From NCBI GenBank assembly GCA_903840415.1, contig CAIMFY010000008.1, positions 1 through 32,865 on the forward strand: a stretch of DNA of 32,865 nucleotides, written 5' to 3'. The translations under genes and the position numbers were made by a program. The notes under the pieces are model-generated. The model saw only the letters and a list, made by a program, of their open reading frames with translations, was not told the origin of the DNA and did not search any database. How positions within the stretch are numbered: position 1 is the first letter of the stretch; every line of letters starts with the position of its first letter. This document shows, piece after piece, positions 3,214 through 19,804 of this stretch. Origin of the DNA: an uncultured Opitutia bacterium (GTDB lineage: Bacteria > Verrucomicrobiota > Verrucomicrobiia > Opitutales > Opitutaceae).

Positions 3214-4154
3214 ATTTTCCCGACGAGCGAGCGCGGGATTTGGTAAAGATAGCCGCACGAGCGCCAACCGCGGACGAGGGCTTTTTTCGCGGCATCCGTC
3301 TGGAAACCGAGCCAGTAAACGAGTGCGAGCAGGGCAAAGCCGAGGGCTTTCACGAGGTTACCGAGAAATCGCGACGCGAAATAACCGCCCGCGCCCGTCT
3401 GGCCGGCGCGATCGATGACGCGGGAGCGGGCGGAGTCGAACGCGTGGCGCGCGGCGTAGCGAAAGGTCGTGCGACTCGCCGGCATCTGGTGCTGCACGGC
3501 GGCGGCGGGCGCGAACCACACTTCGAGACCGGCGGCACGCACGCGGCGGATCATTTCGCTGTCGCCGCCGGAGAAATAATTTCCCGCGGCGCGATCGAGG
3601 GCAGTATGAAACGGGCCAAGGTTTTCAAAAATCCATTTCGGAAAAGCGAGGTTGGCACCCATCGGCGAGTGGCGCGCCGCGATCGGGCCGAGGTCGGCGC
3701 GGAAGGCGAGGGGCGCGTGCCATTCGCGCACCCAGACGGGCAGACCGTCGGGGAAAATCGGAATCACTTCGCCGCCGACGGCACCGATCTTGCGGGCGGC
3801 GGCATCGGCGATAAGGGCGACGGTCATGTGCGCGAGCCAGTCGGGTTGCACCAAAATGTCGTCGTCACCGAAGACGATAATTTCGCCGCGCGCCTCGGTG
3901 AGGGCGCGGTTGCGGGCGTGGTCGAGGCCCTGTTTTTCCTCCCGGATGAGACGGGGTGCGGGTTGCGCTGCGGCGAACTCGGCCACGACGGCGGCGGTGT
4001 GGTCGCGCGAGTTGTTGTCGATGACGAGGATCTCGTAGTGGTGGCGCGGGAATTGTTGCGCAACGAGGCCGGCGAGCGTCTGGCGCAGGTAGTCGGCGCG
4101 ATTGTAGGTGGGAATCGCGACGGTGACCTTGAGCGTGGCGGCAGGCGGTGGCAT
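3210..4154 (-). CDS. Glycosyltransferase family 2
   Basis: A 314-residue GT-A glycosyltransferase. VTVAIPTYNRADYL (about 11-24) is the nucleotide-binding start, ILVIDNNSRD follows, and FGDDD (95-99) is the DXD metal site. GLDHARNRALTEARGE between them is typical of family-2 enzymes. A hydrophobic segment near the C-terminus (ALGFALLALVYWLGF) suggests membrane association. ATG at 4154 was chosen because the longer reading frame adds 77 arginine- and proline-rich residues that run into the divergent methyltransferase gene. It heads the glycosyltransferase-DUF721-rpsO series and diverges from the methyltransferase across 85 bases. Donor and acceptor are unknown. Confidence 0.82.
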   Translation of the reverse strand: MPPPAATLKVTVAIPTYNRADYLRQTLAGLVAQQFPRHHYEILVIDNNSRDHTAAVVAEFAAAQPAPRLIREEKQGLDHARNRALTEARGEIIVFGDDDILVQPDWLAHMTVALIADAAARKIGAVGGEVIPIFPDGLPVWVREWHAPLAFRADLGPIAARHSPMGANLAFPKWIFENLGPFHTALDRAAGNYFSGGDSEMIRRVRAAGLEVWFAPAAAVQHQMPASRTTFRYAARHAFDSARSRVIDRAGQTGAGGYFASRFLGNLVKALGFALLALVYWLGFQTDAAKKALVRGWRSCGYLYQIPRSLVGKI

Positions 4155-7806: not shown

Positions 7807-8697
7807 TCAATCTTTCGACGAGCGCACATCGAGGGCATCGCGCAGGCCGTCGCCGAGGAAGTTGAGCGAGAACAGCGTGAGCGAGAAGATCGCGCCGGGG
7901 AAAATCAGCAGCCACGGAAATTCCTCCATTTTTTCCGCGCCGTCCTTGATCAGCACGCCCCACGAACTCATCGGCGGCTGCACGCCGAGGCCGAGGAAAC
8001 TAAGAAACGCCTCCAGCAGCATGACGCCTGGTATCGTGAGCGTGGTGTAAACGATGATCGGGCCGAGGACGTTCGGCAGGATGTGGCGAAAGATGATCCG
8101 GCGGCGGCCGAAGCCGAGCGAGCGCGCGGCCTCGATGAACTCCATTTTCTTAATCGCCATCACCTGACTGCGGACGATGCGTGCCATCGTGAGCCACTCG
8201 ACGGCACCAATGGCGACGAACAGCAGGACGATGTTTCGCCCGAAAAACACCATCAGCAGGATCACGAAGATCGCGAACGGCAGGGAATACATGATGTCAA
8301 CCGCGCGCATCATGACGGCGTCGAGTTTGCCGCCGAAGAAGCCGGCGACCGCTCCGTAGGTAACGCCGATGCTGAGCGCGACGAGCGTGGCGGCGAGGCC
8401 GACGGCGAGCGAGATGCGGCCGCCAAAAAGCAGGCGCACGAGCAGATCGCGGCCCAGCGTGTCGGTGCCGAGCCAGTGCGCGGCGCTCGGGCGCACGGCG
8501 CCGAGATCGAGGTTCTGTTCCTCGTAGCCGTAGTGCATGAGCCACGGGCCGGTGACGCAGGTGAGCGTGGTGACGATGAGCGCCCACAGGCCGAAGACGG
8601 CTAGTTTGTTTTTCTGCAACCGCAGCCACGCGTCGTGCCAGAGCGAGTTGCCCTTTTCGATGGGCTCGGTGGCGATGGTGGTGGCAGCGGTGCTCAT
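7807..8697 (-). CDS. oppC: Oligopeptide/dipeptide ABC transporter permease OppC
   Basis: A 296-residue inner-membrane permease of the peptide/nickel importer family. The N-terminal OppC_N segment (SLWHDAWLRLQKNKLAVFG) leads into the first membrane helix. The cytoplasmic EAA loop that docks the ATPase reads EAARSLGFGRRRIIFRHILP. About six hydrophobic segments are seen, and a C-terminal NFLGDGLRDALD is typical of OppC/DppC. It begins 6 bases after oppB, so the two are translated from one message and should form the heterodimeric channel. No ATPase genes follow; the next gene is an exporter. Confidence 0.92.
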   Translation of the reverse strand: MSTAATTIATEPIEKGNSLWHDAWLRLQKNKLAVFGLWALIVTTLTCVTGPWLMHYGYEEQNLDLGAVRPSAAHWLGTDTLGRDLLVRLLFGGRISLAVGLAATLVALSIGVTYGAVAGFFGGKLDAVMMRAVDIMYSLPFAIFVILLMVFFGRNIVLLFVAIGAVEWLTMARIVRSQVMAIKKMEFIEAARSLGFGRRRIIFRHILPNVLGPIIVYTTLTIPGVMLLEAFLSFLGLGVQPPMSSWGVLIKDGAEKMEEFPWLLIFPGAIFSLTLFSLNFLGDGLRDALDVRSSKD

Positions 8698-8703
8698 GGC
8701 GCG

Positions 8704-9624
8704 TCAGCTTTCGAGGCGGACCTTCGGGTTCATCCACGCCTGGGCGATGTCGACGGCGAGGTTGAGCGCCATGATGAGCGCCGCGTAAAGGATAACCGTG
8801 CCGAGCACGAGGGTGTAGTCGCGGTTGAAGGCGCTGTTGACGAACTCGCGGCCGACACCAGGCACTTGAAAAATCGTTTCGATGACGAACGATCCTGTGA
8901 GAATACCGGCCGTTGCCGGTCCGAGAAACGACACCACCGGCAGCAATCCGCCGCGCAGTGCATGGCGCGTGACCACGCGAAATTCGGAGGCGCCCTTTGC
9001 ACGTGCCGTGCGGATGAAATCTTGGTGCAGGATCTCCAGCAGCCCGCCGCGCGTGAGTCGCGAGATCGGGGCGGCGTAGGCGAGGCCGAGCACGAGACAC
9101 GGCAACACGCGATCGGCGGGTTCATACCAGCCCGAGGCGTTGAACCAGCCGGCGTGGATCGCGAGCGCGAGCACCAGCAGCGGTCCGACGACAAAAGTCG
9201 GAATCGAAATACCCGTCATGCCGAATCCGGAGGCGAGATAGTCGACCCAGGTGTTCCGGCGGATGGCGGCGAGCGTGCCGAGACCGATGCCGAGCACGAG
9301 CGCGACGGCGAGTGACTCCGCGCCGAGCTCGGCGGAGACGGGCAGCTTGTCGCTGAGGATTTCGTTGACGGTGCGGTTCGGGTATTTGAACGACGGTCCG
9401 AGATCGCCGTGGGCGAGGCTGCCGAGGTAATCGAGGTATTGGCGCCAGAGCGGCTTGTTGAGTCCGTAGTGCGCCTCGAGGTTGCGCAAAATCTCCGGCG
9501 TGACGGCTTTCTCCGCGGTGAACGGACCGCCGGGGACGAAGCGCACCATGAAAAACGTCGCCGTGATCACGAGAAAGAGCGCGAGCAACGACTGCAGGAA
9601 GCGCGACGTGATAAAGCGGAGCAT
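8704..9624 (-). CDS. oppB: Oligopeptide/dipeptide ABC transporter permease OppB
   Basis: A 306-residue permease partner of OppC. The N-terminus MLRFITSRFLQSLLALFLV, with the following FVPGGPF, is the standard OppB/DppB opening. The EAA loop is HQDFIRTARAKGASEFRVV. The C-terminal ending AWMNPKVRLE is likewise typical, where family members usually end in DPR. Six hydrophobic segments are seen. It lies 62 bases downstream of oppA-type gene 1 and 6 bases upstream of oppC. It is the only permease pair in the window and probably serves all three binding lipoproteins; that sharing is inference. Confidence 0.92.
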   Translation of the reverse strand: MLRFITSRFLQSLLALFLVITATFFMVRFVPGGPFTAEKAVTPEILRNLEAHYGLNKPLWRQYLDYLGSLAHGDLGPSFKYPNRTVNEILSDKLPVSAELGAESLAVALVLGIGLGTLAAIRRNTWVDYLASGFGMTGISIPTFVVGPLLVLALAIHAGWFNASGWYEPADRVLPCLVLGLAYAAPISRLTRGGLLEILHQDFIRTARAKGASEFRVVTRHALRGGLLPVVSFLGPATAGILTGSFVIETIFQVPGVGREFVNSAFNRDYTLVLGTVILYAALIMALNLAVDIAQAWMNPKVRLES

Positions 9625-9686: not shown

Positions 9687-11306
9687 TCAGGGTGCGAGTT
9701 CGACGTATTTCCACGGATAATTGTCGAGGTAGGTGGTACGAAAATTCTTCACGTCCGGGCGCACGAGCCGGGTGTAAGTGTAGAAATAAATCGGCATCAC
9801 CGGGAGTTCATCGAGGAGGATTTTCTCCATCCGCTGGTAAACTTCGTAGCGATCAGCGGTGGTCTTGGCATCGAGCGACTGGGTGAGCAGGCGGTCGAAT
9901 TCGGCGTTGCCCCAATTGGTGTTATTGTTCCCGCCGCCCGTGCGCCAGAGATCGAAAAACACGTGCGGATCCACGTAGTCGGCGATCCAGCCAGCGCGTT
10001 GGATTTGAAAATTCGTGGTCTTCTGCGAATCGAGATAAACTTTCCACTCCTGATTATAGATCGTCAGATCGATGCCGAGATTCTTGCGCCACATCTGCTG
10101 AAGGGCCTCGGCGATCGTGCGGTGTTTTTCGAGGGTGTTGTAGAGGAGTTCGATTTTCGGCAGGCCGGCGCCGCCGGGATAGCCGGCCTCGGCGAGGAGG
10201 CGCTGCGCTTCGGCGATGTCGCCGGTTAGATGGTGACGGCTTTGGTAGCCGCCGACGCCGGGCGGCACGAGGGCGAAAGCGGGCTGCTCCTCGGCCAGCG
10301 TGACATTTTTCACCAAGCTTTCGCGATCGATCGCGAGGGCGAAGGCGCGACGAACGCGGACGTCATCAAACGGTTTGCGCTGGACGTTGAAGCGATAGAA
10401 ATAAACGCCGCAGTAAGGATCGGTGCGCAGCACCTCGGGTTGCTCGCGGCGATAGACCGGGATTTTCGAGAGCGGCACCTCGTAGGTGAGGTCGAGTTGG
10501 TTGGTGCGAAACATCCGTTCCTCGGTCTCGGCGAGTTCGACCGGGAAAAACTGAATCTCATCGAGCTTCACCCGCGCCCGGTCCCAGTAGGTGGGCGAGG
10601 GCTTGACGACAATGACTTGGTTGGGGCGCCACTCGGTGAGGACAAAGGGGCCGTTGCCGACAAAATTGGCAGGGCGCGTCCAATCGGAGCCCTTGCGATC
10701 GAGGCCGCCGAATTTCGCAATGACATCGATGGGCACGGGAAACCACGCGTGGTGGAGCATGGCTTGCAGCAGAAAAGGCGTGGGCTGCCGCAGCGTGAGG
10801 CGGAGTGTGCGATCGTCCGGCGCCTGAAAACCGGTCTCCGAAAAATCTTTCAACTTGCCGTGGAAATAATCTTCGCCGCCCCCGACGTAAAAAAACATGT
10901 AGGAATAATCGGCGCCGAGCGCGGGTGTGAGCATCCGTTGGGCGGAGCGGACGAAGTCGCGGGCGGTGACGAGTTGGCCGTTGGACCACTTCGCATTGGC
11001 GCGGAGATGAAAGGTGTAGGTAAGACCATCCGGCGAAACCTCCCAGCGCTCCGCGACGCCGGGCTCGAGCGTCTTGCCGTCGGGTGCGAGTGCCACGAGT
11101 CCCTCGTAGAGCGAGATCATCAGCCGGTATTCGGGTGTGCCGGTGATGGTCTGCGGATCGATGTCCTGGGGTTCGGTGCCGTTACCGACACGAAGGATTT
11201 TTTTGGCCAGCGCGGTGGCGGTGCCTACGGGCGGGTTTTCCTTTCTGGCGCAGCCGGCGGCGACGAGGAGGGACAGGAAAAGGGAGGCGATCAAACGCGA
11301 CGGCAT
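9687..11306 (-). CDS. oppA: Peptide-binding lipoprotein 1 (OppA-type, SBP family 5)
   Basis: A 539-residue extracytoplasmic solute-binding protein. The signal peptide ends in the lipobox LVAAGC with Cys19 as the lipidated residue. The mature protein shows the family-5 motifs: LRVGNGTEPQDIDPQ, WEVSPDGLTYTFHLR, AKWSNGQLVTARDFV, VRRAFALAIDRESLV and QQMWRKNLGIDLTIYNQEWK. ADYVDPHVFFDLW and GNNNTNWGNAEFD near the C-terminus fit OppA of peptide importers. It directly precedes oppB-oppC and is the most conventional of the three paralogues, so it is likely their main receptor. A REP-like palindrome pair lies upstream. Confidence 0.93.
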   Translation of the reverse strand: MPSRLIASLFLSLLVAAGCARKENPPVGTATALAKKILRVGNGTEPQDIDPQTITGTPEYRLMISLYEGLVALAPDGKTLEPGVAERWEVSPDGLTYTFHLRANAKWSNGQLVTARDFVRSAQRMLTPALGADYSYMFFYVGGGEDYFHGKLKDFSETGFQAPDDRTLRLTLRQPTPFLLQAMLHHAWFPVPIDVIAKFGGLDRKGSDWTRPANFVGNGPFVLTEWRPNQVIVVKPSPTYWDRARVKLDEIQFFPVELAETEERMFRTNQLDLTYEVPLSKIPVYRREQPEVLRTDPYCGVYFYRFNVQRKPFDDVRVRRAFALAIDRESLVKNVTLAEEQPAFALVPPGVGGYQSRHHLTGDIAEAQRLLAEAGYPGGAGLPKIELLYNTLEKHRTIAEALQQMWRKNLGIDLTIYNQEWKVYLDSQKTTNFQIQRAGWIADYVDPHVFFDLWRTGGGNNNTNWGNAEFDRLLTQSLDAKTTADRYEVYQRMEKILLDELPVMPIYFYTYTRLVRPDVKNFRTTYLDNYPWKYVELAP

Positions 11307-13114: not shown

Positions 13115-14581
13115 TCACTGCATCCGGCGGTAGAGCTGTGGCGCCGATCCGCGGCGGATCAGGTGGCTGATCTCGCCGCGCGAATCTCGCTCGAACGAAA
13201 AAATATCCGGCTCCTCGAGCGTGAAAAACTCGTGGTCCGACTGCGGGAAAATTTCAACCCGTGGCCGGCTGCCCACCTTCAGGTAAAAGCGGCCCTGACT
13301 TTGGAAGGCGATCAGCGTGGTCTCTTCTCGCTGATAGCGGCCGATGAAATCGGCGAACGCCTCTGGCGTGAGCGGGGCGGCGGTTTTCTCGACAACGCCA
13401 TAGTCGGGCCAGTCGTATTCGCGGGCGATCGCGCGCAGGATTTCGTCGGCGAGCGCGGAGCCGTTGTCGGAGTTGGTCATGATGATCGCGCCGCGGCCGG
13501 CGAACGGATAAGTGACCAGCATGCAGCGAAAACCTTCGTTGGCGCCACCGTGGGAGAGCTGGAGTTTCTCGCCGTGATTTTTAACGCCGAATCCGAGGCC
13601 GTAGTCGCTGCCCGCGATGGGCGGCAACACGATTTGGCTGGCGGTGGCAGCGGTGAGCAGACCGTCCTTTGCCTCCAACATGCGTTGCACGGCGATCGCA
13701 AATCGCGCGAGATCGCCCGGCGTGGTCCACAGGCCGGCAGCAGCGATTTCGGGATAAACGTGAGCGTTACCCGGGATGGGCGTGCCGTTGGGACGGTGGC
13801 CGGCAGCGGCGCGGGGCGCGAATTCGGCGGGCAGCGGTTGCTCGCAGGTGCTCGCGTTCATGCCGGCCGGAGCAAGGACCCGCTGGCGCACGAATTCGGG
13901 AAACGTCACTCCGGTTACGTCGAGTACGAGTTGCTGCACGACGCAGTAGCCGCCGCCGGCATAGCGCCACTTCGTGCCAGGGGTGAGATCAATGCGGATG
14001 GGTTCGGAGTTGGCGGGTCGGGCGCCGTCGAGGACTTGGCGCAGAGTGGGCCGCGGCTCGCCCGCGGCGTAGCCGGCGAATCCGTGAACCGTCACGCCCG
14101 CGGTGTGGCTCAGCAAGCGGCGCAAGGTGGCGCGCTCGTCGCCAGCGACATTCACGGTGGGCAGTTTCCACGACGTGAGTTTTTCGTTCACGTCGGCATC
14201 GAGTGCGAGCTTGCTGGCGTCAACGAGCGTGAGTGCGGCGACGGCCGTGACGGGTTTGCTGATCGAGGCGGCTTGAAAGAGCGTGTCGGGCGTGACGGGC
14301 GCGGTTTCTCCGGCGCGAGCGATGCCGTAGGCGCGCGCCCACTCGACAGCGCCGTGGTTGATGACCGCGATGCTCGCGCCTGGGATCTTGTAGAACTTCA
14401 TCCGCGCCTCGATCGTCCAAGGTTCGGCCTTCGCGCCGACGACGCGGGCCGGCGGCAGCAAGCCCGACTCCACGGCAGCGATCTTGGCCGCGAGCGCGGC
14501 GTCAGGTCCGGATTCCACCGCAAACGCAGCGGAAGCGGTGATCACCAGCGAGACCAGTTTATTTTTCGTCGAGGAAAACAT
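13115..14581 (-). CDS. Exported serine hydrolase, beta-lactamase/DD-peptidase (S12) family
   Basis: A 488-residue penicillin-binding-like serine hydrolase. The predicted signal peptide covers about residues 1-21. The active-site SxxK is S106-I-S-K109 in QAASISKP. The second motif is Y207-A-G, where the usual YxN asparagine is replaced by glycine. The third box is HGG in LSHGGANEGF. A C-terminal beta-rich extension follows the catalytic domain from about residue 380. ATG at 14581 lies inside the end of oppA-type gene 2 (23-base overlap), which implies coupling. The family includes esterases, D-aminopeptidases and beta-lactamases. A peptide or peptidoglycan-related substrate is plausible from context, but resistance activity should not be assumed. 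Confidence 0.85.
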   Translation of the reverse strand: MFSSTKNKLVSLVITASAAFAVESGPDAALAAKIAAVESGLLPPARVVGAKAEPWTIEARMKFYKIPGASIAVINHGAVEWARAYGIARAGETAPVTPDTLFQAASISKPVTAVAALTLVDASKLALDADVNEKLTSWKLPTVNVAGDERATLRRLLSHTAGVTVHGFAGYAAGEPRPTLRQVLDGARPANSEPIRIDLTPGTKWRYAGGGYCVVQQLVLDVTGVTFPEFVRQRVLAPAGMNASTCEQPLPAEFAPRAAAGHRPNGTPIPGNAHVYPEIAAAGLWTTPGDLARFAIAVQRMLEAKDGLLTAATASQIVLPPIAGSDYGLGFGVKNHGEKLQLSHGGANEGFRCMLVTYPFAGRGAIIMTNSDNGSALADEILRAIAREYDWPDYGVVEKTAAPLTPEAFADFIGRYQREETTLIAFQSQGRFYLKVGSRPRVEIFPQSDHEFFTLEEPDIFSFERDSRGEISHLIRRGSAPQLYRRMQ

Positions 14582-16145
14582 TCGAGTAGAACCGCGTCCA
14601 CAGTGCGTCTTCCCGCCAGCCATGGACGTGCGGGGACGTGAGCCAGTGGTGGGTGTTGAAATAGAGTGGCGCGATCGCGGCGGAGTCGAGAAGGCGCTGC
14701 TCGGCGGCGGCGAAATCGCCGTCGGCGAGGGCGCGATCAAAGTCTATATCAGTCCACTGCGGGAAATTTTCGGACGCGCCCGCAGTGAAGCGATTGAGCA
14801 GATCTGCGGCATCGGCGACGTCGGGAATCGCAGTGATAAAGCCGATGTCGTAGTCGCCGCTTCGGAGCGCGCTCACATGGACTTTGGCATCGCGCACGGC
14901 GAGAGCGACGTCGAGGCCGAGTTCCAGCTTCCACATTTGCTGGATGGCTTCGAGGACGGTCGTTTGCGAATGCGACCACGCGCTAAGTTCGAGTCTCGGA
15001 AATTTTTTTCCGCCGGGAAACCCGGCCTCGGCGAGGAGTCGCCGCGCTTCTGCGAGATCGGTTGGTGATAGGTCGGGGCTCATCTCCGACGTCGGAGTCG
15101 GGCGAAAAGCCCGACCGACCAGCGTCGGCGGCACCAGCCGCGTGGTGGGTTCCTGGTGACCGAGCAAGACGTGTTCGGTGATTTTTTTTCGGTCGATCGC
15201 GAGCGACAGGGCGCGGCGGACGCGGGCATCGGTCAGCGGCGGGCGCCGCGTGTTGAAAGTGAGAAACCGCGTCTCTGCAAGGGCGGCACGCTGGAGTTCG
15301 GCCGGCCGCTCTTGCGCGTAGGTGGCGAGTTTCGTGCGCGGCACGTCCATCGTGATGTCGATCTGACCGGCGCGGTAGGCGCGCTCCTCGGAGTCGCCGT
15401 CGTCGAAGCGGATAAACTGGATTTCGTCGAGGTGCACCGCGGTGGCAGCGCGGTAGGTGGAATTTTTTTTCACGACGATCCGCTGCTGCGGTCGCCACTC
15501 GGCGAGCGTGAACGGACCGTTGCCCACGAAGTGATCGGGCTGCGTCCAGGTGCGCCCGAATTTTTCGACAACGCGCGGATTGATCGGAATCCACGGGCCG
15601 CTCGCGACGTAGTAAGGGAATCGCGGCAGCGGCCTCGCCAGCGTGATGAGGAGCGTGCGGGCATCGGTGGCGCGAAAGCCGACGGCGGAGAAATCCGCGA
15701 GCGTGCCGGCTACGAAGGCGCGGGCATTTTTCACCGGGAAAAAAAGCTGCGCTTTCGGCGCCGCGGTGGCCGGCGTGAGTGCGCGGCGATAACTCGCGAC
15801 GAAATCCGCCGCCGTGACGGATTCGCCGTTGGACCAGCGCGCGTCGCGCAAATGAAACGTGTAGTTGAGACCGTCGGGCGAGACGTCGAAGCGCGCAGCC
15901 GCCGCTGGCAATGGCGCGCCGCCGTCGGGATTCGGCCCGAGCAGTCCCTCGCTGAGGGCCCGAATCACAAAAAATTCGTCCGGCAGCGACGCCCGCACCG
16001 GATCGAGATCAGCGGGCTCGTTGCGCTGGCTGATGCGCAACGCCTGCGCGGACACGGAAACGGGCGTAGCGGCTTCGGGTTTCGTGCAGCCGACCAGCGC
16101 GCACAAAGCGAAGGGAAAGAGAATGGGCCAGCGGTGGCGGTTCAT
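14559..16145 (-). CDS. Peptide-binding lipoprotein 2 (divergent OppA-type)
   Basis: A 528-residue SBP family-5 lipoprotein; the signal peptide ends in LVGC with Cys20. Family motifs are LRISQRNEPADLDPV, DVSPDGLNYTFHLR, ARWSNGESVTAADFV, VRRALSLAIDRKKIT and QQMWKLELGLDV. It is the odd paralogue. Between the conserved VPP and DLAEA it has nine more residues than the other two, and that DNA is a REP-like palindrome (15071-15120). The region corresponding to ADYVDP...FFDLW and GNNNTNW is replaced by unrelated sequence, so ligand preference probably differs. ATG at 16145 begins MNRHRW and directly starts the signal peptide. The gene precedes the serine hydrolase and follows the fucosidase. Confidence 0.9.
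   Translation of the reverse strand: MNRHRWPILFPFALCALVGCTKPEAATPVSVSAQALRISQRNEPADLDPVRASLPDEFFVIRALSEGLLGPNPDGGAPLPAAAARFDVSPDGLNYTFHLRDARWSNGESVTAADFVASYRRALTPATAAPKAQLFFPVKNARAFVAGTLADFSAVGFRATDARTLLITLARPLPRFPYYVASGPWIPINPRVVEKFGRTWTQPDHFVGNGPFTLAEWRPQQRIVVKKNSTYRAATAVHLDEIQFIRFDDGDSEERAYRAGQIDITMDVPRTKLATYAQERPAELQRAALAETRFLTFNTRRPPLTDARVRRALSLAIDRKKITEHVLLGHQEPTTRLVPPTLVGRAFRPTPTSEMSPDLSPTDLAEARRLLAEAGFPGGKKFPRLELSAWSHSQTTVLEAIQQMWKLELGLDVALAVRDAKVHVSALRSGDYDIGFITAIPDVADAADLLNRFTAGASENFPQWTDIDFDRALADGDFAAAEQRLLDSAAIAPLYFNTHHWLTSPHVHGWREDALWTRFYSNVFLDEK
15071..15120. repeat. REP-like palindrome inside a coding sequence
   Basis: CTCCGACGTCGGAG (15084-15097) is a perfect 14-base palindrome. 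It abuts GTCGGGC (15097-15103) and GCCCGAC (15109-15115), which form a 7-bp stem with loop GAAAA. GGTCGG at 15071-15076 and CCGACC at 15115-15120 extend the symmetry. The element is translated in frame within oppA-type gene 2 and accounts for the extra residues seen there against both paralogues. Confidence 0.65.
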
Positions 16146-16189
16146 GCGATTCGCAGCGCAGGATACAACGCGCCACTCGGCTACCATCG

Positions 16190-17702: not shown

Positions 17703-19316
17703 TCACGGCTCCAGCCAGACATACCGGAAATCGGTGTGGTCCATAGGGGTCGGCTGCCAGCCTTTCACCGCGGGTTGGAGCAGGTAAACGTGCGTGTTGA
17801 AAAAGATCGGAATTATCGGGGCGGCGTCGAGGACGAGCGACTCTTCCTGTGCGAGGAGCGCGGCGCGTGCGGCGGGATCAGCGGTGGCGTTGACGCGATC
17901 GGCGAGCGCATCGTAGGCGGGATCGGACCAACCGGTGTAATTGTTGCCGGAGTCGTGGCGCCACAGGTCGAGGAAAGTGGTCGCGTCGAGGTAATCGGCC
18001 GTCCAGTCGCCGAGGAGAATTTGAAAATCGCCGGCACGCCGGCTGGCCATGACAACTTTGTATTCCTGATTGACGAGCCGCGCATCGATGCCGAGGTCGC
18101 GGTGCCACATTTGCTGGATGGCTTCGGCGACGAGGCGGAGGATGTCGGAATTGTTGTAGAGAATTTCGACCGGTGGAAGACCCTTGCCACCGGCGTGACC
18201 GGAGTCGGCCAGCAGTTGCTGCGCGGTGGCCAGATCATACGCGGCGTGCGCGGGCGGCGTGTAGCCTTTCAGAATGGGCGGCACAAACGACGAAGCCGGC
18301 TGACGGCCACCGGGAAGGATTTTATCGGCAAGCGTCTGGCGATCGATGGAGAGCGCGAGGGCGCGGCGGATGCGGATATCGTCGAAGGGCGGACGGCGGA
18401 CATTGAGCCGGAAAAAAAATGTCTGCATGATCGGGTCGATGCGGAGTGCCGGAGACTTTTCGCGTTGGAGCGGGAGCACTTTCGAGAGGGGCAGCGCCCA
18501 CGTCACGTGCAGCTGGCCGGCGCGATAGGCGCGTTCCTCGGCGTCGATGTTGTCGATCGGATAGAAGCGGATGGCGTTGAGGCGCACATGGGCGCGGTCC
18601 CAATAGGTGGGCGATTTCTCGACGAGGATGCTCTGGTGTGCGCTCCATTCCTTCAGAACGAACGGGCCGCTCGATACGAGATGGCCGGGCTGCGTCCACG
18701 GTGTGCCGCGTTGGTAGGGATCGCCGAGGGCGGCGATGCTGCGGACGTTGACGGGGCGCCACGGAGAGTTGAGCAGGATTTGGAGAAAATACGGTGCCGG
18801 GTGCGTGAGGGTGACGACGAGAGTGCGGGCGTCGGTCGCGACGACGCCCACGGTGGAAAAATCCTTGGTCTGGCCCTTGTGAAACGCCTCTGCGCCGCGC
18901 AGCAGATAGAACCAATCGGCGTAGGGTGCGGCAAGCGACGGCGTGAGAATGCGGTGCCACGAGTCGGCGCAGTCTTGCGCGGTGACGGTCTCGCCATTGC
19001 TCCACTTCGCGTCGGCGCGGACGTGAAACGTGTAGGTGAGACCATCCGCGGAAATTTCCCAGCGTTCGGCCAGCGCGGGTTTCGGCGCCAGCGTTCCCGG
19101 CTCGAACGTGACCAGCGGTTCGAACAGCGCGCTCATGACTTTCGCATCGGCGAGCGCGACGACAGTGTGCGGATCAAGGTCGCTCGGTTCGGAGCCGATG
19201 CTAAAATGGAGCACGCCGTCGCGAGTACCACGTGCGACGATCGATTCGCGTTTCGCGCAGCCGGCGCCGAGAAGCAGTATGAGCGCCAAGGACAGGCGAC
19301 TGACGGCGAATCGCAT
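17703..19316 (-). CDS. Peptide-binding lipoprotein 3 (OppA-type, SBP family 5)
   Basis: A 537-residue family-5 solute-binding lipoprotein. The signal peptide ends in the lipobox LGAGC with Cys20. LHFSIGSEPSDLDPH, WEISADGLTYTFHVR, AKWSNGETVTAQDC, RIRRALALSIDRQTLA and IQQMWHRDLGIDARLVNQEY are the diagnostic motifs. TADYLDATTFLDLW and GNNYTGWSDPAYD match lipoprotein 1 in the ligand-closing region. ATG at 19316 was used; a TTG at 19325 would overlap ispF. It is the first gene of the uptake series, 5 bases after ispF, so transcription may continue from the isoprenoid genes. Paralogous to lipoproteins 1 and 2, probably by duplication. Confidence 0.92.
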   Translation of the reverse strand: MRFAVSRLSLALILLLGAGCAKRESIVARGTRDGVLHFSIGSEPSDLDPHTVVALADAKVMSALFEPLVTFEPGTLAPKPALAERWEISADGLTYTFHVRADAKWSNGETVTAQDCADSWHRILTPSLAAPYADWFYLLRGAEAFHKGQTKDFSTVGVVATDARTLVVTLTHPAPYFLQILLNSPWRPVNVRSIAALGDPYQRGTPWTQPGHLVSSGPFVLKEWSAHQSILVEKSPTYWDRAHVRLNAIRFYPIDNIDAEERAYRAGQLHVTWALPLSKVLPLQREKSPALRIDPIMQTFFFRLNVRRPPFDDIRIRRALALSIDRQTLADKILPGGRQPASSFVPPILKGYTPPAHAAYDLATAQQLLADSGHAGGKGLPPVEILYNNSDILRLVAEAIQQMWHRDLGIDARLVNQEYKVVMASRRAGDFQILLGDWTADYLDATTFLDLWRHDSGNNYTGWSDPAYDALADRVNATADPAARAALLAQEESLVLDAAPIIPIFFNTHVYLLQPAVKGWQPTPMDHTDFRYVWLEP

Positions 19317-19321
19317 GGTGA

Positions 19322-19804
19322 TCAAATTCGCTCGATCAGCACGACGGCGTGCGCGGCGATCGCGAGGCCGCGGCCGATTTCATCAAGACCTTCGTTCGTC
19401 GTCGCCTTCAACCCGATGGCATCGGCGCTGAGCTCGGTGGAGTTGGCGAGGACCGCTTTGATTTCGCCGAGGCGCGGGTAAATTTTCGGTTTCTCGGCGA
19501 TCAGCGTGGCGTCGATATTGGCGGGCGCATAACCGCGCGAGTGTAGTTCGGCGACGACGCGGCGGAGGAGGATCTGCGAGTCGATGTCCTTGTAGGTCGG
19601 ATCGGTGTTGGGAAAAAAAATGCCAATGTCCGGCAGACCGGCGGCGCCAAGTAGGGCGTCGCAAATGGCGTGGGTGAGGCAGTCGGCGTCGGAGTGACCG
19701 TCGAGACCGAAGTCGGTGTCGAACGTCACTCCGCCGAGGACGAGACGGCGGCCCGCGACGATGCGGTGGATGTCGTAACCATGGCCGATGCGGAAGGAAG
19801 ACAT
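19322..19804 (-). CDS. ispF: 2-C-methyl-D-erythritol 2,4-cyclodiphosphate synthase
   Basis: Fifth step of the MEP isoprenoid pathway, cyclising CDP-ME 2-phosphate with loss of CMP. The 160 residues match the usual length. The metal ligands are in GHGYDIHR near the N-terminus and in the signature DGHSDADCLTHAICDALLG. FPNTDPTYKDIDSQ and KATTNEGLDEIGRG complete the family pattern. It works as a cytoplasmic trimer. It follows ispD by 12 bases, the common ispD-ispF arrangement, and is separated from the peptide-binding lipoprotein gene by only 5 bases. Confidence 0.98.
   Translation of the reverse strand: MSSFRIGHGYDIHRIVAGRRLVLGGVTFDTDFGLDGHSDADCLTHAICDALLGAAGLPDIGIFFPNTDPTYKDIDSQILLRRVVAELHSRGYAPANIDATLIAEKPKIYPRLGEIKAVLANSTELSADAIGLKATTNEGLDEIGRGLAIAAHAVVLIERI

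Follow-up and report, generated by a model that had tools for sequence, protein, structure and literature searches.

We report that an oppA-type gene in the genome of an uncultured Opitutia bacterium (G000) carries, translated within its coding sequence, a 52-base stretch that very probably is a GTAG-type REPIN, inserted in the loop from VPP to DPAEAR in the common ancestor of G000 and G001, the sole same-genus genome among those compared. The window, i.e. the whole stretch of DNA that was analysed, comprises 32,865 nucleotides of G000. Firm in this reading are the existence of a repeat family that lies mostly between genes, the position common to two species, the absence in other genera, the open frame and the prediction of a disordered loop. 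Excerpts of Di Nocera, De Gregorio and Rocco 2013 (PMC3733652) describe intragenic GTAG REPs in the same bacterial family, and the window REPIN is therefore a clear new example and not a new kind of thing. Being common to two species and absent elsewhere, it provides a well-dated case of mobile intergenic DNA becoming protein sequence, for which the repeat family, sites without the insert and a predicted position in a loop are all available, along with a candidate mover found in a relative.

Borders and parts of the element in gene 2

Three oppA-type genes are present on the minus strand between positions 7807 and 19325 of the window (9687-11306, 14559-16145 and 17703-19325); permease-like genes on the same strand lie near them (7807-8697 and 8704-9624), with other genes in between. 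The repeat is located in the gene at 14559-16145 (gene 2), the product of which matches PF00496 (SBP_bac_5) with 265 bits and has MppA and OppA structures as its best Foldseek matches. A second possible start of gene 2 is an in-frame ATG upstream, at 16187. The features are:

14559 to 16145, minus strand: oppA-type peptide-binding lipoprotein gene (gene 2), 528 amino acids, from the list of open reading frames, with ATG at 16145
15068 to 15119, minus strand: REPIN, a decayed inverted REP pair of 52 bases, with 6 mismatches in 46 arm bases and 47.7 bits with model R1
15097 to 15119, minus strand: first arm in the reading direction, GTCGGTCGGGCTTTTCGCCCGAC, with 2 mismatches to GTAGGTCGGGCTTTACGCCCGAC and a perfect 7-bp stem
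15091 to 15096, minus strand: spacer TCCGAC of 6 bases (12 bases in G001)
15068 to 15090, minus strand: second arm, inverted, GTCGGAGATGAGCCCCGACCTAT, with 4 mismatches to the reverse complement of GTAGGTCGGGGTTTATCCCCGAC
15084 to 15097, no strand assigned: 14-base perfect palindrome CTCCGACGTCGGAG, overlapping the spacer and the inner portion of one arm

An arm of 23 bases that resembles GTAGGTCGGGCTTTACGCCCGAC is thus followed by 6 spacer bases and by an inverted arm resembling GTAGGTCGGGGTTTATCCCCGAC, and the whole is translated as residues 343-360 of 528 (VGRAFRPTPTSEMSPDLS; codons 15066-15119) with the frame open throughout. The initial annotation had described a 14-base palindrome abutting a GTCGGGC/GCCCGAC hairpin, in frame, and we found these at 15084-15097 and 15097-15115, respectively; its element stands, and its borders (15071-15120) are corrected to 15068-15119, which takes in the two 23-base arms and the 6-base spacer. 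The tags at the hairpin feet have decayed to GTCG and ATAG in the window copy, a point against the REPIN reading, with GTAG in the family consensus and in one G001 arm. The end of the REPIN holds the only CTA codon (one of 53 Leu codons) and the only TCA codon (one of 26 Ser codons) of gene 2, and we regard these as foreign codons, favouring insertion.

Alignment and a recount gave 22 residues from VPP to the D of DLAEA in gene 2 and 13 in both paralogues, as had been claimed (nine extra residues); this excess is a net difference and not the size of the insert, which is about 18 residues. Modelling of the loop position, which had been proposed as a check, was done with AlphaFold2 (28 sequences; mean pLDDT 88.1, pTM 0.84). 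Specifically, values of pLDDT below 50 were predicted only within residues 1-30 and at residues 345-358, the latter being a low-confidence loop that corresponds to the insert, and the model would fit with the insert being a tolerated disordered loop.

A palindrome might arise by chance from the codons used in a variable loop, rich in Pro, Arg and Gly, within a GC-rich gene. In line with this, the folding energy of the window stretch is only moderately unusual (equalled by 40 of 5,000 synonymous shuffles; z -3.57 vs dinucleotide shuffles), other loops of the oppA-type protein also fold well, and several relatives that have no REP still form stems of 7-9 pairs. Folding energy is weak as a test of the palindrome, and comparison with the repeat consensus serves better: both arms match the family, with 6 mismatches in 46 bases, whereas none of 20,000 synonymous-codon shuffles reached 6 (the best had 8), and in a consensus scan of the window the next scores were 16, all of them shifted versions of the REPIN site. 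Chance is contradicted already by an exact REP arm at the same place in the G001 orthologue, and we consider it extremely improbable. Moreover, the covariance model R1, which is based on 37 other copies (three from G000 or G001, L065, L066 and L185) with the window copy and its G001 orthologue left out, gave the window copy a score of 47.7 bits (E 2.6e-11 in G000, with 150 candidates scored per genome).

The repeat family and a candidate mover

A search with GTAGGTCGGGGTTTATCCCCGAC at ≤3 mismatches resulted in 119 matches, spread over 9 of the 31 Opitutaceae genomes (48 in G016, 31 in G038, 19 in G021, 9 in G001, 5 in G024, 4 in G002, and one each in G000, G007 and G022), and the reversed control pattern in none; the other 22 genomes had no family match at this threshold. 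In the loci around the matches, 85 of the 106 distinct clusters have at least two arms. Only three of the 106 are within a coding-like open frame, using a rule (open coding-like frame with ≥40 codons on each side) that misses copies near gene ends, and the family is thus mostly intergenic. The three are the oppA copy of G001, a gene encoding a UDPGP domain in G001 and an AtuA gene in G016. We also note a REPIN in G001 (L185 1439-1489; G001:C110:8238-8288) that has coding-like flanks in the same frame on both sides and no open frame fitting both; it possibly marks a broken gene or two adjoining genes.

In G000 itself, R1 detected the repeat at E <1e-4 in at least six places (C94, C74, the window, C6, C118 and C102), of which the window copy alone is open in a coding frame. 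An exact-hairpin pattern search of G000 gave the window copy and no second match, while a mismatch-tolerant search gave 13 matches (both strands counted; control 2), and a BLAST-type search with an 85-base stretch gave weak matches only, among them a real copy on C74 (L006). Hence, the search for other copies in the same genome, suggested with the initial annotation, yielded at least five others at E <1e-4, divergent and none of them in an open coding frame. The proposal that a normally intergenic repeat was inserted with the frame kept is supported by the mostly intergenic family of 119 matches together with the absence of the insert outside the genus.

According to the parts of Bertels and Rainey 2011 (PMC3116915) available to us, a REPIN consists of two inverted REPs and a spacer, can form one hairpin and is tied to RAYT genes. 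The family studied here has many copies in relatives, forms an inverted doublet with a spacer, is mostly intergenic and, in G016, flanks a RAYT-like gene. The REPINs of Pseudomonas fluorescens are described as extragenic in the same excerpts (PMC3116915), whereas the window copy is translated and its mobility is presumed.

The RAYT-like gene in G016 (C23, L180) encodes 173 amino acids (1327-1848) and is situated between inverted REPs of the window family at 1268-1290 and 1874-1896, with gaps of 36 bases on one side and 25 on the other. It scores 74.4 bits with REP_Tyr_transpos (NF047646), which is below the NCBIfam cut-off of 80, and 24.5 with Y1_Tnp (PF01797), above the Pfam cut-off of 23. 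On the basis of its sequence and position, this gene is a candidate cognate mover of the window REPIN family. Y1_Tnp is present in 27 of the 31 Opitutaceae genomes, and a profile search of G000 for PF01797 gave no match, so that a RAYT as mover of the window copy is deduced from relatives. The likeness to RAYT/TnpA-REP systems is hence that a gene matching REP_Tyr_transpos is flanked by two inverted REPs of the window family in G016; the difference is that no such gene was found in G000 and that the L180 mover is a candidate. TnpA-REP cuts single-stranded REPs near CT and depends on GTAG, as stated in excerpts of PMC8266576, and this lends some help to the deduction. We considered CT beside both insertions (in G000 and G001) as a sign of such cutting; it fits, but so frequent a dinucleotide carries no weight.

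The oppA loop among relatives and the number of insertions

A scan of named genomes gave 80 loci, 77 of which cover the oppA loop (L168, L169 and L174 are cut). The window REPIN family is present in the loop of one of these 77 relatives, L100, which is G001's own record; with respect to the suggested comparison with close orthologues, the insertion is thus absent outside the genus and present in the same-genus G001. The loop varies between 23 and 45 residues among relatives (33 in the window, 35 in G001), and its length alone therefore proves nothing. The net gain is 4-5 residues over the common class of 28-29 residues and 9 over the class of 24, while the element encodes 17-18; since the gain is smaller than the element, part of the ancestral loop was probably lost or replaced, and this was not a clean insertion.

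Among five loops longer than 30 residues a GTNG-tagged hairpin is present in four (the window, G001, L103 and L163) and none in L143. That a long oppA loop always represents a REP was rejected, as neither L143 (34 residues) nor L039 (44 residues) has a GTNG-tagged hairpin. Such hairpins were detected in 4 of 78 loops, where synonymous shuffles predict 1.67, and elsewhere in these genes 14 of 1,197 control stretches had one; this is a weak signal, and a hairpin by itself is therefore no proof of a REP. In L163, from a groundwater Verrucomicrobia genome, GTAG-GGACGGCTCTCCGAGCCGTCC is followed some 45 bases on by GGGCGGCTCGGAGAGCCGCCC-CTAC (3477-3568), translated in the oppA loop. This is a full GTAG-tagged inverted pair with a stem unrelated to the window family; arms of its family (GTAG-GGACGG, ≤4 mismatches) number eight in the 319 loci examined, two of them in L163 (reversed pattern 0), and a scan of viral contigs for this GTAG family found nothing. 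The L103 loop has a single-arm hairpin, and since it differs from the L163 arm at 8 of 25 positions we regard it as only a possible remnant.

The G001 orthologue of gene 2 (72% identity) has a REPIN of 58 bases at the same place (C43:21681-21738), composed of GTCGGTCGGGGTTTATCCACGAC, a 12-base spacer and GTCGGGGATAAACCCCGACCTAC (23+12+23). The reverse complement of GTCGGGGATAAACCCCGACCTAC is an exact REP with 0 mismatches, and the stem of this REPIN has 15 bp, giving a fold equalled in none of 2,000 synonymous shuffles. The window and G001 copies agree in reading frame, flanking residues and the changed tag GTCG, and the difference of 6 bases between the spacers accounts for the two-residue difference in loop length. 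One ancestral insertion followed by drift is the simplest reading of these data. Counting against it, the arms are of C-type and G-type in the window copy and both of G-type in G001, and to explain this mismatch, the arms must have diverged or undergone conversion, or two insertions must have taken place separately. Two independent insertions at the same site, of a C/G-type REPIN in G000 and a G/G-type REPIN in G001, would account for the arm types and the spacers of 6 vs 12 bases, and such a coincidence has some precedent in the other GTAG family in the oppA loop of L163 and in one AtuA loop that carries three different repeats in three congeners. The change from GTAG to GTCG at the end, the frame and the flanking residues are, however, common to both copies, and we judge two insertions to be rather unlikely.

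With a single ancestral insertion, the course of events might be as follows. A REPIN, i.e. a non-autonomous inverted pair of REP hairpins moved by a RAYT via single-strand transfer, would have entered the VPP-to-DPAEAR loop in the common ancestor of G000 and G001, probably at the expense of some of the former loop. It would have stayed because the loop tolerates it and because one frame runs through both arms without a stop. At present it may be a neutral passenger that decays roughly as fast as the gene does and, given that G000 lacks a Y1_Tnp match, it is presumably inert there.

Alternatively, selection could maintain the palindrome because of a function in DNA or RNA, for instance as a hairpin in the transcript, as a site where a protein binds or as a regulatory signal within the gene. 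The perfect 7-bp stem of one arm in the window copy is in keeping with this, and excerpts of PMC3733652 presume a role as RNA elements for REPs elsewhere. Yet the arms show only about the same conservation as the gene (37 of 46 positions identical between G000 and G001 by hand count, compared with 73% for the whole gene and 54% for third positions), the second arm has decayed, and a search of 14900-15300 against Rfam gave no family at E up to 1. A selected function is accordingly very unlikely, and we prefer the neutral passenger.

Known systems and other genes with translated repeats

In the available parts of PMC3733652, intragenic GTAG REPs are reported as most numerous in Opitutus terrae and are proposed to sit in flexible linkers or loops, and recB of two Xanthomonas species is noted to carry different REPs at roughly the same position. 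The Opitutus terrae repeats resemble the window REPIN in their tag, host family and occurrence as inverted dimers inside real coding sequences; what our data add to these excerpts is that unrelated families recur in the same Opitutaceae loops. We found no closer work on intragenic REPs in the open-licence literature, and make no claim that none is in print.

Rickettsia palindromic elements (RPE), studied by Ogata and colleagues, are reportedly palindromic repeats in frame within working genes. The window REPIN would by analogy share with them the principle of a palindromic repeat inserted in frame in a gene. The initial annotation had drawn this comparison, and it holds in that the repeat is in frame in a PF00496 gene, is absent from 76 of 77 relatives and is found in several unrelated genes. 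The Rickettsia families listed in the excerpts of PMC3733652 are CGTC-tagged, in contrast to the window family, which is GTAG-tagged and has a RAYT-like gene.

What is new, to a modest degree, is that repeat families unrelated to one another have been captured by the same protein loops. Specifically, certain Opitutaceae protein loops might be standing landing sites, invaded repeatedly by unrelated palindromic repeats that are then translated; we put this forward tentatively, at somewhat less than even chances. The cases behind it are the oppA loop (with L103 as a possible remnant), an AtuA loop and the linker of a UDPGP-domain protein. If it is true, repeat families would steadily supply new loop sequence, and protein tolerance would set where repeats survive. 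Furthermore, if loops repeatedly capture unrelated families, the effect of an insert on the folded binding protein would be directly testable with natural orthologues with and without it.

For AtuA (PF07287), comparison of L213, L255 and L256 showed that the G016 gene has a full REPIN of the window family in frame (L213 1539-1600; G016:C30:210338-210399). The same loop has a 29-base palindrome in G047, found at 28 places of that genome, and a 19-base palindrome in G054, with 11 matches there (9 forward and 2 reverse, ≤3 mismatches); the orthologues in G046, G050 and G007 have no insert in the loop.

In the UDPGP-domain gene, which we take to be fucokinase-like, the seven orthologues aligned besides those of G001 and G004 have neither a REP arm nor the insert of G004. 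The latter (L267) is palindromic, GGTGVPPVMADQPHGRDARAT, of other sequence, had no second match among the 319 loci examined and makes the linker 16-19 residues longer. At the same linker, the G001 gene has a single REP arm in frame (L184 1472-1494), with a net change of at most about one residue.
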